Positions 47,360 through 52,473 of a stretch of DNA of 64,000 bases are shown here, piece after piece. Both the position numbers and the translations under genes were made by a program. The stretch covers positions 62,001 through 126,000 of the forward strand of contig NZ_BMNC01000014.1 of assembly GCF_014646255.1 (NCBI RefSeq), read 5' to 3'. Numbering within the stretch: position 1 is the first letter of the stretch; each line of letters opens with the position of its first letter. This DNA comes from Lentzea pudingi. Lineage in GTDB: Bacteria; Actinomycetota; Actinomycetes; Mycobacteriales; Pseudonocardiaceae. The notes under the pieces are model-generated. The model was not told the origin of the DNA. It made no database searches and was given only the letters and a program-made list of their open reading frames with translations.

Positions 47360-47848
47360 ATGGCACGCCGCATCGAGCACCACACCACGTCACCCCATTC
47401 GGCGGAGAAGGTCTTCGGCGCGATGGTCGACGAGACCCATCTGCGGGACAGGCTGGCCGCGATCGGCGGCAAGGACGCCGCGCTCGTGTCGTTCGACAAG
47501 ACCGAAGAGCGCACGTCGTACCAGCTCAAGCAGGGTGTCCCCGCCGAGCACCTGCCGTCGGCGGTCAAGGCCGCGCTCGGCGGCGACCTGGTGATCCAGC
47601 GCACGGAGACGTGGGCCGCGGGCGCCGGCACGGTCGAGGTGCTGATCAACGGTGTGCCCGGCCGCCTGGAGGGCTCGTTCACCGTCCTTCCCAACGGCTC
47701 CGGCTCCAAGACCACCCTCGCGGGTGAGGTCAAGGTCGGCATCCCGCTCCTGGGCGGCAAGCTCGAGAAGCTGATCGCCGAGCAGGTCGTCGTGCTGCTC
47801 GACAAGGAGAGCGAGTTCACGTCCGGATGGCTCGCAAACCGCGGCTAG
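47360..47848 (+). CDS. DUF2505 (SRPBCC-like) protein
   Basis: 162 residues: MARRIEHHTTSPHSAEKVFGAMVDETHLRDRLAAIGG, then beta-strand-rich sequence and a long C-terminal helix (GGKLEKLIAEQVVVLLDKESEFTSGWL), the usual START/SRPBCC-like layout of DUF2505. Equivalent to Rv0481c next to murB. Ligand unknown. Leaderless ATG. Confidence 0.9.
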   Translation: MARRIEHHTTSPHSAEKVFGAMVDETHLRDRLAAIGGKDAALVSFDKTEERTSYQLKQGVPAEHLPSAVKAALGGDLVIQRTETWAAGAGTVEVLINGVPGRLEGSFTVLPNGSGSKTTLAGEVKVGIPLLGGKLEKLIAEQVVVLLDKESEFTSGWLANRG

Positions 47849-48633
47849 CGGCCGGCCGGGCCCGTGCGCTCGGCCTGCCGACGCGCGGCACGACCAACCC
47901 GAACCGCCTGCGCCGGGTCGACCGGTGGACGACCGGGACGCTGTCCGGCTTCCTGCTGGACGCGGCCGACCCGCTCGTGGTCGACCTCGGGTACGGGGCC
48001 ACGCCGATCACCACCGTCGAGATGGCGTCTCGCCTGCGTGCGGTGCGGGCTGACGTGCGCGTGCTCGGGCTGGAGATCGACCAGGACCGGGTGGACGCGG
48101 GCAAGGCCGTGTCGGACCCGCCGTGGCTCGACTTCCGGCGCGGCGGCTTCGAACTGGCCGGTGCGCGGCCGGTGTTGTTGCGCGCCTTCAACGTGCTGCG
48201 CCAGTACACCGAGGAGCAGTCGTTCGAGGCGTGGGACACGATGCTGTCCCGGATGGCGCCCGGCGGACTGGTCGTCGAGGGCACCTGCGACGAGATCGGC
48301 CGCCGGTGCACGTGGGTGACGTTGAGCTCGGACGGCCCTCGGACGTTCACGCTGGCCCTGAAGCCGTCCGCGATCGAGGTGCCCTCGGACGTCGCCGAAC
48401 GGCTGCCCAAGGCGTTGATCCACAAGAACGTGCCGGGCGAGCGCGTGCACGCGTTGCTGGCCGAGCTGGACGCCTGCTGGGCGACCGCGGCCCCGTTCGC
48501 CCCGTTCGGTCCTCGGGCGCGCTGGGTGGAGTCGGCGCGGCTGCTGGTGGAACGCGGCTGGCCGGTGCTGGACGACCGGAAGCGGTGGCGGCTCGGCGAA
48601 ATCACGCTCGATTGGGCCGCCGTCGCCCCCTAG
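47827..48633 (+). CDS. SAM-dependent methyltransferase-like protein
   Basis: 268 residues. A class I-like nucleotide loop LVVDLGYGATPITTVEMASRLR, LGLEIDQDRV (acidic ribose-binding residue) and MLSRMAPGGLVVEGTCDEIGRR. The N-terminus is basic. It overlaps the DUF2505 gene by 22 bp. Substrate unknown; conserved in Actinobacteria. Confidence 0.82.
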   Translation: MARKPRLAAGRARALGLPTRGTTNPNRLRRVDRWTTGTLSGFLLDAADPLVVDLGYGATPITTVEMASRLRAVRADVRVLGLEIDQDRVDAGKAVSDPPWLDFRRGGFELAGARPVLLRAFNVLRQYTEEQSFEAWDTMLSRMAPGGLVVEGTCDEIGRRCTWVTLSSDGPRTFTLALKPSAIEVPSDVAERLPKALIHKNVPGERVHALLAELDACWATAAPFAPFGPRARWVESARLLVERGWPVLDDRKRWRLGEITLDWAAVAP

Positions 48634-49382: not shown

Positions 49383-50258
49383 GTGTCATCGCCTGAACGT
49401 CGCTATGTGATCACCTTCGGCTGCCCGGACCGCACCGGCATCATCGCGAGGATCTCGTCGTTCCTCGCGGACAACGGCGGCTGGATCGTCGAGGCCGCGT
49501 ACCACACCGACCCGGAGACGGGCTGGTTCTTCACGCGCCAGGAGGTCCGCGCGGACTCCCTGCCGTTCGGCGTGGGCGAACTGCGCGAGCGCTTCGCCGG
49601 CGTGGCCACCTCGCTGGGCGCGCAGTCGACGTGGACGGTGACCGACACGGGCTCCCGCAAGCGGGTGGTCATCCTCGTCTCGAAGGAGGGCCACTGCCTC
49701 TACGACCTGCTCGCCCGCGTGGCGACCGGCGAGCTGGACGTCGAGGTGTCCGCCGTCATCGGCAACCACCCGGAACTGGGCGACATCACGCGCGCGCACG
49801 GCATCCCGTTCCACCACATCCCGTTCCCGGTCAACGACCCCGAGGGCAAGCAGGCGGCGTTCGCGCAGCTGCGCCAGCTGGTCGAGAAGCACGACCCGCA
49901 CGCCGTGGTGCTGGCCCGCTTCATGCAGATCCTGCCGCCGGAGCTGTGCGCGGCGTGGACCGGTCGCACGATCAACATCCACCACAGCTTCCTGCCGTCG
50001 TTCATCGGCGCGCGCCCGTACCACCAGGCGCACCGCCGCGGCGTGAAGCTCGTGGGCGCGACCTGCCACTACGTCACGGCCGACCTGGACGCGGGGCCGA
50101 TCATCGAGCAGGACGTGATGCGCGTGCACCACGGCGACTCGGTGGCGGACATGGTGCGCAAGGGACGTGACATCGAGAAGGTGGTGCTGGCGCGCGGGTT
50201 GCGGTGGCACCTGGAGGACCGCGTGCTGGTGCACGGCAACCAGACGGTGATCTTCTAG
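49383..50258 (+). CDS. purU: Formyltetrahydrofolate deformylase
   Basis: 291 residues. N-terminal ACT domain (VITFGCPDRTGIIARISSFLADNGG) and C-terminal formyltransferase-like domain (RVVILVSKEGHCLYDLL, INIHHSFLPSFIGARPYHQAHRRGVKLVGATCHYVTADLDAGPII) with the catalytic Asn/His/Asp set. Hydrolyses 10-formyl-THF to formate and THF, balancing one-carbon units. GTG start 13 bp after the previous stop. Confidence 0.96.
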   Translation: MSSPERRYVITFGCPDRTGIIARISSFLADNGGWIVEAAYHTDPETGWFFTRQEVRADSLPFGVGELRERFAGVATSLGAQSTWTVTDTGSRKRVVILVSKEGHCLYDLLARVATGELDVEVSAVIGNHPELGDITRAHGIPFHHIPFPVNDPEGKQAAFAQLRQLVEKHDPHAVVLARFMQILPPELCAAWTGRTINIHHSFLPSFIGARPYHQAHRRGVKLVGATCHYVTADLDAGPIIEQDVMRVHHGDSVADMVRKGRDIEKVVLARGLRWHLEDRVLVHGNQTVIF

Positions 50259-50267
50259 CGGAGAACG

Positions 50268-50299
50268 TGCCTTCTGCCGTGTTCGCGGCAGAAGGCACG
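50268..50299. terminator. Bidirectional terminator between purU and the aminotransferase-like gene
   Basis: GTGCCTTCTGCCG (50268-50280) and CGGCAGAAGGCAC (50287-50299) form a perfect 13-bp stem with a 6-nt loop, placed between two convergent stops. Confidence 0.8.
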
Positions 50300-50303
50300 G
50301 TCG

Positions 50304-51278
50304 TCAGATCTTGTTGGCGGCCATCCCCACGGCCTCCACGAGCCACCCCGCGTCCGCCGCCGACATCACCGCGGGCGGCGTGAACACGACCTTCCGGCCG
50401 CGGAAATCCGCCAGCACCCGCCGTCGCAGCAGCTCACCGGTGAACACGTCGGCGGCCTTCTGGTCCGGCAACTCCACACCGAGCAACAACCCACGCCCGG
50501 TCGCGTGCGCCTTGCCCGACACGACGGCACGCAGGCCGTACAGCAGCTCGTCGCCCAGCAGCTTGGCGCGTTCGACCAAGCCCTCGGACGCGGTGACGCG
50601 CAGGGTGGCGTTCACAGCCGCGGAGGCCAGCGGCGACACGGCTTCCGAGCCGCGCCACAACGGCACCTCGACGGCGGCCGTGGCCACCACGGCGGCGATG
50701 GGGAGCACTCCGCCGGACAGGCCCTCGCCGACCAGCATGATGTCCGGCGTCACGCCGTCGAGGTCGACGCCCCACCACACGCCGAGACGCCCCAGCCCGG
50801 ACCGCGTCTCGTCCACGACGAGCAGTGCGCCGGACTCGCGGCACACCTCCGCCACGGCGCTCAGGTAGCCCGTGGGCGGGAGCGCGGCGCCGCGGACCGG
50901 TTCGACGAGCACGCACGCCGGTGGTCCTGAGGCCAGGGTGGAGCGCAACGAGTCGATGCCGCCGTACGGGACGTCGCCGGTGGTCAACACACGTGGGCGG
51001 CCGTTCGCCTGTGCGAGGGCCACGGCGAACTGGGCGGCCTCGGAGGCCGAGGCGAAGGTGTGGATGTGGTCGAGGCCGTTCGGGGTGACCAGGTCGAGCA
51101 TCAGGCGGTCCAGCAGCGACGGCCTGCGCACCTGGTCGACGACGGCCTGCACGACGGCCGGGTGGGCGTGGCCGAGCAGGGGGACTCCGTACCCACCGCA
51201 GTCCAGGTACTCGACGCGGTGGGGATCTACCACTCGTGCGCCTCTGGCAGCGCATCCGGTCAGCAGTTCGGTGGCCAT
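50304..51278 (-). CDS. Class III aminotransferase-fold protein lacking the PLP lysine
   Basis: 325 residues, shorter than typical class III transaminases (~400-450). Fold markers: [23 protein letters not shown] at the N-terminus, LVVDETRSGLGRLGVWWG (acidic residue contacting the pyridine ring) and PDIMLVGEGLSGGVLPIAAVV. In ornithine aminotransferase-type enzymes the latter reads LGKALSGG with the Schiff-base lysine; here that lysine is glutamate. Transaminase activity is therefore unlikely. ATG at 51278 supported by AAAGG upstream and homology edge. Confidence 0.82.
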   Translation of the reverse strand: MATELLTGCAARGARVVDPHRVEYLDCGGYGVPLLGHAHPAVVQAVVDQVRRPSLLDRLMLDLVTPNGLDHIHTFASASEAAQFAVALAQANGRPRVLTTGDVPYGGIDSLRSTLASGPPACVLVEPVRGAALPPTGYLSAVAEVCRESGALLVVDETRSGLGRLGVWWGVDLDGVTPDIMLVGEGLSGGVLPIAAVVATAAVEVPLWRGSEAVSPLASAAVNATLRVTASEGLVERAKLLGDELLYGLRAVVSGKAHATGRGLLLGVELPDQKAADVFTGELLRRRVLADFRGRKVVFTPPAVMSAADAGWLVEAVGMAANKI

Positions 51279-51392
51279 GGCGGGGAACCTTTCCTGGGCA
51301 GCGCGGCCCGAGGCCGCTCGTCGGGAGGGCGAGCGGACCTGTGTTCCCACCAACTCATTCGGATTCCGGGCCCCGTCGGTTCGCCCGAGGCA

Positions 51393-51405: not shown

Positions 51406-52473
51406 GTGCGGATCGAAATCACCGACCTCGACCAGCTGCGGGCAGCTCCTGACCTGCGCAAAGCCGTCATCATCGGGCTGGACCTCACTCGCGAGGACGT
51501 GCGGGTGCCGCTGGACGGCGCGCTGCTGCTCGGCTGCGCCCTCAGCGAGACCATGCAGCGCCGGGCGGAGGCTGCGGGAGCGTTGATCTTCCCGGTCATC
51601 CCGGACCTGCCCTACGACGTCTACCGGTCGGCGCTCTACACACCCGCGGAGCTGTTCGCGGGCTTCGACCCGGACGACCCCAAGTCGTACGCCGACACCC
51701 CGGACGCGGAGATCTACCGGCACAGCAGGCAGCAGGGCCACCACCCGGACCCGTTGCACGCGCTGACCGAACGCCTGCACGACCACTCGATCACCGAGGC
51801 CCTCGACGACGCGCTGACGGGCTCACCGGTCGCGGTCATGGGCGGCCACGCGCTCGCCCGCGGCTCCGACGGCTACCGCAACGCCGTCGCACTCGGTGCC
51901 GCGCTGGGCGGCGCGGGCTTCACCGTGCTGACCGGCGGCGGGCCGGGCGCGATGGAGGCCGTCCCGCTGGGCGTGCGGCTCGGCGAGGTGAACGCCGACG
52001 TCCTCGGCACCATCGCGCAGGCCCCGTCCTTCGGCCACGACGACGAGTCGATCGGCCGGTGGCTGGCGGCGTTCCCGGAGCTCCCGAGCTTCGAGACCCC
52101 GCGCACGATCGGCATCCCGACCTGGTTCTACGGCCACGAGCCGCCCAACCCGGCCTGCGAGCTGCACGCGAAGTACTTCGCGAACTCGGTGCGCGAGGAG
52201 GGCCTGCTGACCGTCGCGACCGGCGGCATCGTCTATACGCCAGGCAAGGCGGGCACGGTCCAGGAGGTCTTCCAGGACTTCACGCAGAACTACTACGGCA
52301 GCGTCGGCCCGGCCGCGCCCATGATCTTCCTGGGCAAGGCGTTCTGGACGGACGAGATCCCGGCCGCGCCGCTGGTGATGAAACTCGCGGCGGGCCGGGA
52401 GGCCGAGCAGTGGATCCTCGTCACCGACGACGTGGACGAGGCGATCGCACTACTGCAGAAGTACCAGTCCTAG
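51406..52473 (+). CDS. LOG/Rossmann-fold nucleotide-binding family protein
   Basis: 355 residues. The N-terminal ~120 residues are unassigned; the C-terminal Rossmann domain has VAVMGGHALARGSDGYRNAVALG, TVLTGGGPGAMEAVPLG and FTPGKAGTVQEVFQDF-like sequence (actual YTPGKAGTVQEVFQD). These correspond to the PGGxGT and GGGxGxM motifs of lysine-decarboxylase-like LOG proteins, with PGKAGT replacing PGGxGT. Might be a nucleotide phosphoribohydrolase; substrate not inferable. Confidence 0.83.
   Translation: MRIEITDLDQLRAAPDLRKAVIIGLDLTREDVRVPLDGALLLGCALSETMQRRAEAAGALIFPVIPDLPYDVYRSALYTPAELFAGFDPDDPKSYADTPDAEIYRHSRQQGHHPDPLHALTERLHDHSITEALDDALTGSPVAVMGGHALARGSDGYRNAVALGAALGGAGFTVLTGGGPGAMEAVPLGVRLGEVNADVLGTIAQAPSFGHDDESIGRWLAAFPELPSFETPRTIGIPTWFYGHEPPNPACELHAKYFANSVREEGLLTVATGGIVYTPGKAGTVQEVFQDFTQNYYGSVGPAAPMIFLGKAFWTDEIPAAPLVMKLAAGREAEQWILVTDDVDEAIALLQKYQS

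Follow-up and report, generated by a model that had tools for sequence, protein, structure and literature searches.

SPTLC1 is a member of fold type I. This subunit of serine palmitoyltransferase, also named hLCB1, is described in the cited part of its literature as a PLP-enzyme homologue without the PLP lysine (PMC3794620), and the sections drawn on from a review of pseudoenzymes (PMC10211241) describe proteins that lose catalytic residues and whose modes of action include allosteric regulation and scaffolding. The words 'pyridoxal', 'transaminase' and 'aminotransferase' are absent from that review's main text, and the listings and abstracts returned from an open-licence library for lysine-less class III or fold-type-I aminotransferases and for Lentzea contained no description of the protein reported here, which is not proof of absence. 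Both sequence comparison and Foldseek gave YgjG, the putrescine aminotransferase of E. coli (4uox), as the best solved-structure match to this protein, and in a VIA-align list YgjG entries were likewise on top, with class III-type PLP enzymes among the best 50 rows. In the part of the YgjG structure report cited here (PMC4244111), PLP is carried on Lys300 together with Asp271, its ring is sandwiched by Phe180 and Val273, its phosphate is contacted by Gly150, Thr151 and, from the other subunit, Thr332, and Glu243, Gln274 and Arg426 lie on the substrate side, the enzyme being a dimer whose active site draws residues from both subunits.

The gene and its locus

The window analysed is the whole 64,000-nucleotide stretch of a Lentzea pudingi contig, in which the gene of interest, P0001, runs from an ATG at 51278 to a stop codon ending at 50304 (Table 1). 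Judged from sequence comparison, P0001 is a real, selected class III pseudo-transaminase of the kind represented by pseudoenzymes of PLP folds, and it has lost catalytic residues in common with pseudoenzymes in general, as these are described in the cited sections of the review (PMC10211241). It scored 137.2 bits against Pfam Aminotran_3 (PF00202), for which the gathering cut-off is 30.5 bits, while none of the best 25 of the 68 matched NCBIfam families reached its curated cut-off; the highest score was to acetylornithine transaminase (153.1 against a cut-off of 457 bits), and the putrescine transaminase equivalog gave 139 against 612 bits. The upstream AGGAAAGG motif is retained in the orthologues with minor changes, L036 and L042 carrying one extra base between it and the common ATG. 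A longer upstream reading frame (a 431-aa ORF) was considered and rejected: in L032-L034 no more than 21 open codons precede the ATG in frame, and none of them is a start codon. The upstream in-frame stretch of L043 resembles the N-terminal arm of lysine-bearing (K-bearing) relatives.

Table 1. Positions of the pseudo-transaminase gene, its altered sites and its neighbours in the window
Feature	Coordinates	Strand	Remarks
purU-like gene	49383..50258	plus	Formyl_trans_N; ACT just under its cut-off; convergent neighbour of P0001
Hairpin, 15-bp stem	50266..50299	unstranded	Between convergent purU and P0001; z -4.64
P0001 pseudo-transaminase gene	50304..51278	minus	324 aa, ATG start; PF00202 E 7.8e-40
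Junction at residues 210-212	50643..50651	minus	Six residues of FLHTST loop missing
Glu185 codon GAG	50724..50726	minus	Aligned to YgjG Lys300 (Schiff-base lysine); Glu in 19/19 Lentzea orthologues
Arg159, new	50802..50804	minus	Invariant 19/19; YgjG Gln274
Asp156 codon GAC, pyridine-nitrogen aspartate retained	50811..50813	minus	Aligned to YgjG Asp271; Asp in 19/19
Arg129, new	50892..50894	minus	Invariant 19/19; Gln in at least 90% of 25 K-bearing rows
Junction at residues 100/101	50976..50981	minus	31 residues with YHGKT/FHGKT segment (YgjG Phe180) missing
AGGAAAGG, Shine-Dalgarno-like	51288..51295	minus	9 bases 5' of P0001 ATG
LOG/TIGR00730-like Rossmann protein gene	51406..52473	plus	Divergent neighbour of P0001

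P0001 stands alone between the purU and LOG-type genes, neither of which is co-directional with it, and the intervening hairpin is likely a bidirectional terminator shared with purU. The LOG gene directly adjoins purU, with no P0001 between them, in the Lentzea genomes G010 and G016 and at L123 and L124 of another genus. Outside Lentzea, no LOG match at 1e-60 was found in 24 of 30 genomes, and among the six non-Lentzea LOG loci purU lies beside LOG at those two loci of one genus, and the 1.5 kb flanks of the other four contain no purU. The purU/LOG gap seems to be an insertion spot in Lentzea. In genome G023 the gap holds an ORF showing no similarity, with Thr/Gly-rich repeats (L113:626-1500), and in G013 two ORFs that appear lipoprotein-like by eye lie beside a remnant of P0001 (L107:327-1500). 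The LOG-like protein itself, of 355 aa, is weakly matched by TIGR00730 and PF18306 and has relatives of 71-79% identity in 6 of 30 other family genomes. A 268-aa ORF at 47827-48633 had no Pfam or NCBIfam match at 0.001 and, for most of its length, shares 89-94% identity with sequences near purU at all five Lentzea loci compared.

Loss of the lysine and probable remodelling of the cofactor site

A sequence-only reading of this stretch had noted the motif VGEGLSGG and proposed that glutamate replaces the catalytic lysine in an aminotransferase-fold protein that keeps the pyridine-contact aspartate and is about 100 residues short. Each of these points held: the motif is present in the ORF at 50304-51278 with Glu185 in the lysine position, opposite YgjG Lys300, and the residue is Glu in all 19 intact Lentzea orthologues; Asp156 lies opposite YgjG Asp271 and is equally invariant; and the shortfall is true relative to the nearest K-bearing relatives, L049-L058, whose lengths (387-438 aa) depend on script-chosen start codons. 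In the column of Glu185, 69 of 71 other loci, a set that includes duplicates (e.g. L132 = L053), had a tblastn match, comprising 66 Lys, one Glu and two Ala. The single Glu is that of L025, a broken Lentzea copy from genome G011, and the Ala at L075 and L095 results from tblastn gap placement, MAFFT alignment giving Lys in both. The idea would have failed had another lysine taken over the structural position, and among the 19 orthologues no lysine column was common to all, K256 and K323 reaching 18 of 19 and the Lentzea indica orthologue having one lysine in the entire protein. Because no such common column exists, relocation of the Schiff-base lysine can be ruled out as a conserved trait.

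The changes extend well beyond the lysine. Of the ten PLP and substrate contacts published for YgjG in the cited part of the report, P0001 keeps one (Asp156) and has conservatively replaced another, Thr151 being represented by Ser79 (Thr in one orthologue). Phe180, which stacks on the ring, and Glu243 lie in segments deleted from P0001, so that the protein has no aromatic ring-stacking residue, its segment being missing, and the GEG that contains Glu243 is absent right after Arg129. Val273, Gly150 and Gln274 correspond to Thr158, Ala78 and Arg159, respectively. Thr332 of the opposite subunit is either deleted or, by other alignments, represented by residue 211, where the 19 orthologues vary between Ser, His, Pro and Glu; the gap in the FLHTST loop is itself alignment-dependent, falling after residue 210 in two alignments and after 211 in one. 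Arg426 falls in a gap in one alignment and opposite residue 298 in another, the latter being Val, Gly, Cys or Ser among the orthologues. Relative to the K-bearing rows, P0001 further lacks the N-terminal arm, 11 residues after position 62, 5 after 257, 3 after 293 and a short C-terminal tail. Still present are Asp156, the phosphate-loop Ser/Thr and many structural glycines, and because these persist, weak binding of PLP or of a phosphate ligand is a possibility. The Lentzea proteins and 25 K-bearing rows, which include duplicates, share 77 positions; 14 positions are fixed in 19/19 Lentzea proteins to a residue differing from at least 90% of those rows, among them K185E, Q159R, Q129R and G78A. 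Of the 68 other loci that carry a residue at the Arg159 position, 43 have Gln and none has Arg.

The nearest relatives in the tree are actinobacterial K-bearing class III aminotransferases (L049-L057, L128-L139), which are up to 50% identical over residues 85-322 and have the WWG, LSGG and DE motifs in common with P0001; unlike it, they possess the Lys, the YHGKT/FHGKT segment, GEG and an HTSTF-like loop; their length exceeds that of P0001 by approximately 100 aa. They belong to an unnamed subfamily, probably from secondary-metabolism operons. The neighbours of the K-bearing genes at L051, L053 and L057 include genes for NAD_binding_4 reductase, acyl-CoA dehydrogenase-like and AMP-binding proteins, along with polyketide cyclase, GMC oxidoreductase or methyltransferase genes, and these neighbourhoods at three loci suggest that the ancestor of P0001 came from secondary metabolism. 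A nitric oxide synthase oxygenase-domain gene (L051:6550-7965, E 3.8e-155) lies near a K-bearing aminotransferase gene of Streptomyces sp. PKU-EA00015.

A structural model built from an alignment that included K-bearing relatives (17 relatives, with 14 of the 19 Lentzea orthologues) reached a pLDDT of 88.3 and aligned with YgjG 4uox_C over 318 residues (Z 39.2, rmsd 2.1), its lower-confidence blocks, at the N-terminus, ~51-70 and ~201-220, adjoining the missing segments. The modelled protein has the fold-type-I aminotransferase fold. As the model from Lentzea sequences alone was poor (pLDDT 46.5), the fold is backed by homology and not independently.

Distribution, origin and selective constraint

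A full-length match of 75-100% identity to P0001 was present in 19 of 24 Lentzea genomes, including the source genome, and the gene was absent or broken in the other five: the G011 copy has suffered an internal deletion and frame changes, G013 retains a C-terminal remnant only, and G010, G016 and G023 have no copy at the purU/LOG locus. At E <= 1e-60, 19 of the family's 390 genomes carried the gene, and all 19 belong to a single one of its 46 genera; at E <= 1e-38 the number of genomes with a match rose to 50 of 390, with identities of up to 50% outside Lentzea, and in a phylum-wide sample 3 of 396 genomes passed 1e-40, the source genome being one of them. In a quick-method tree, which carried long-branch warnings for some relatives and was built without L064, L065, L066, L075, L084 and L095 as well as L022, L027 and L028, the 19 orthologues formed one clade (support 100) whose stem measures 1.2 changes per site and whose inner branches are far shorter. 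The long stem and short tips fit a release from catalysis followed by new constraint. The exact sister of the clade is uncertain because the stem is long.

In a purU tree rooted on L123 and L124, the earliest-branching Lentzea genome, G019, carries P0001, and the five absences require four changes (3-4 in bootstrap trees), two of which are forced when starred branches alone are considered. From this placement of G019 and of the absences, P0001 was probably acquired no later than the base of Lentzea and then lost several times. It is selected where present but dispensable, as its absence or breakage in 5/24 Lentzea genomes indicates.

All 19 intact orthologues are exactly 324 aa long, with no stop and no indel. 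Their dN/dS had a median of 0.145 (range 0.035-0.336; NG86, 171 pairs); the adjacent purU, used as a yardstick, gave 0.123 over 210 pairs (21 of 24 loci, L113, L116 and L121 being left out). Constraint peaks in the N-terminal third, with pN 0.026 and pS 0.271 for residues 1-110 compared with pN 0.084 and pS 0.336 for residues 111-324 across the 19 orthologues, and the strongest constraint among twelve 27-codon windows fell on residues 28-54 (pN/pS 0.031). As this stretch contains Tyr30, which aligns with Phe91 of the substrate cleft in the cited description of YgjG, a pocket or dimer role for it is plausible.

Competing explanations and significance of the pseudo-transaminase

With the lysine lost, PLP-contacting segments missing, purifying selection acting and a single clade holding the intact copies, as the aligned sequences establish, P0001 very probably performs a non-transaminase job. 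A decaying pseudogene or a sequencing or assembly error would account for the broken copy in G011, the C-terminal remnant in G013 and the empty loci in G010, G016 and G023, and is nevertheless extremely improbable: 19 intact orthologues of identical length with a median dN/dS of 0.145 rule out both error and decay of the gene. The sequence-only reading had left two prospects, non-covalent PLP binding or a non-transaminase role, and the latter is favoured, gaining from the fixed Lys-to-Glu change (19/19), the absence of a common lysine and the purifying selection, while the former is made unlikely, most PLP contact positions beyond the lysine being lost or altered. A PLP carrier, sensor or lysine-independent enzyme that used Asp156 and what is left of the phosphate loop to hold PLP or PMP without a covalent bond would agree with the invariance of Asp156, with Ser/Thr79 at the phosphate-loop Thr position and with the fold kept in the model; it is improbable given that the Phe180 (ring-stacking) and Glu243 positions are missing, that Thr332 of the other subunit is missing or replaced by a variable residue, and that Val273 has become Thr and Gly150 Ala.

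Similar odds attach to a role as the non-catalytic partner of an active aminotransferase in a heterodimer, on the model of SPTLC1 and SPTLC2, which would suit an active site built from both subunits, as the cited part of the YgjG report has it (PMC4244111), and the strong constraint on the N-terminal third. Both SPTLC1 and P0001 are PLP-enzyme homologues without the PLP lysine, as far as the cited part of the SPTLC1 literature goes (PMC3794620), but SPTLC1 is partnered by an active close homologue, whereas P0001 has no close K-bearing homologue among the source-genome matches listed; that genome gave 8 matches, and for five others among those listed identity is 33-40% across part of the protein. 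In only 2 of 24 Lentzea genomes does a closer K-bearing relative (42-44%) occur at E <= 1e-38, and one of the two, G010, is without the pseudo form. Neither neighbouring gene is co-directional, and the loop that would serve a partner's PLP is short of six residues and of its Thr. An SPTLC1-like partnership, which might involve a distant partner, is possible but disfavoured, because the partner-completing loop is shortened and close K-bearing homologues occur in only 2/24 Lentzea genomes at the 1e-38 threshold. Somewhat less probable again is a new lysine-free enzyme, in which a putative cluster of Glu185, Asp156, Arg129 and Arg159 would act on a new substrate by acid-base chemistry, with no need of PLP. 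Both Glu185 and Arg159 are invariant and found at 0/68 loci compared outside the P0001 family, and Arg129 is invariant where at least 90% of 25 relatives have Gln, but we know of no fold-type-I precedent for lysine-free, PLP-free chemistry, which counts against this explanation.

It is highly likely that P0001 is a PLP-free, selected, non-transaminase protein, and, by a slightly smaller measure, likely that it is a PLP-free pseudo-transaminase acting by binding and derived once in the Lentzea lineage. Under this account, a K-bearing class III transaminase would have given rise once, in that lineage, to a protein, probably still dimeric, that would retain the fold-type-I transaminase scaffold and no longer carry PLP. 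The old cofactor pocket would have been remodelled by the invariant Glu185, Arg159, Arg129 and Asp156, and may be either closed by salt bridges or able to bind a different small molecule. Function may then be exerted through binding of a metabolite or protein partner, as a sensor or regulator, and not through transamination, although a binding-regulator role taken alone is a tentative proposal. More tentative still is the suggestion that, once and in a single genus, a transaminase fold became a PLP-free protein whose new charged pocket (Glu185, Arg159, Arg129, Asp156) senses a new anionic metabolite or supports lysine- and PLP-independent chemistry.

Because P0001 scores far over the Pfam class III cut-off, it could pass for a transaminase, which is a warning for annotation. 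Selected, lysine-less relatives of PLP enzymes offer a way to learn what uses the transaminase scaffold has without its cofactor. The history of P0001 is readable, with one clade, a fast stem, later constraint and known K-bearing relatives, and its natural losses within Lentzea allow comparison in one genus.
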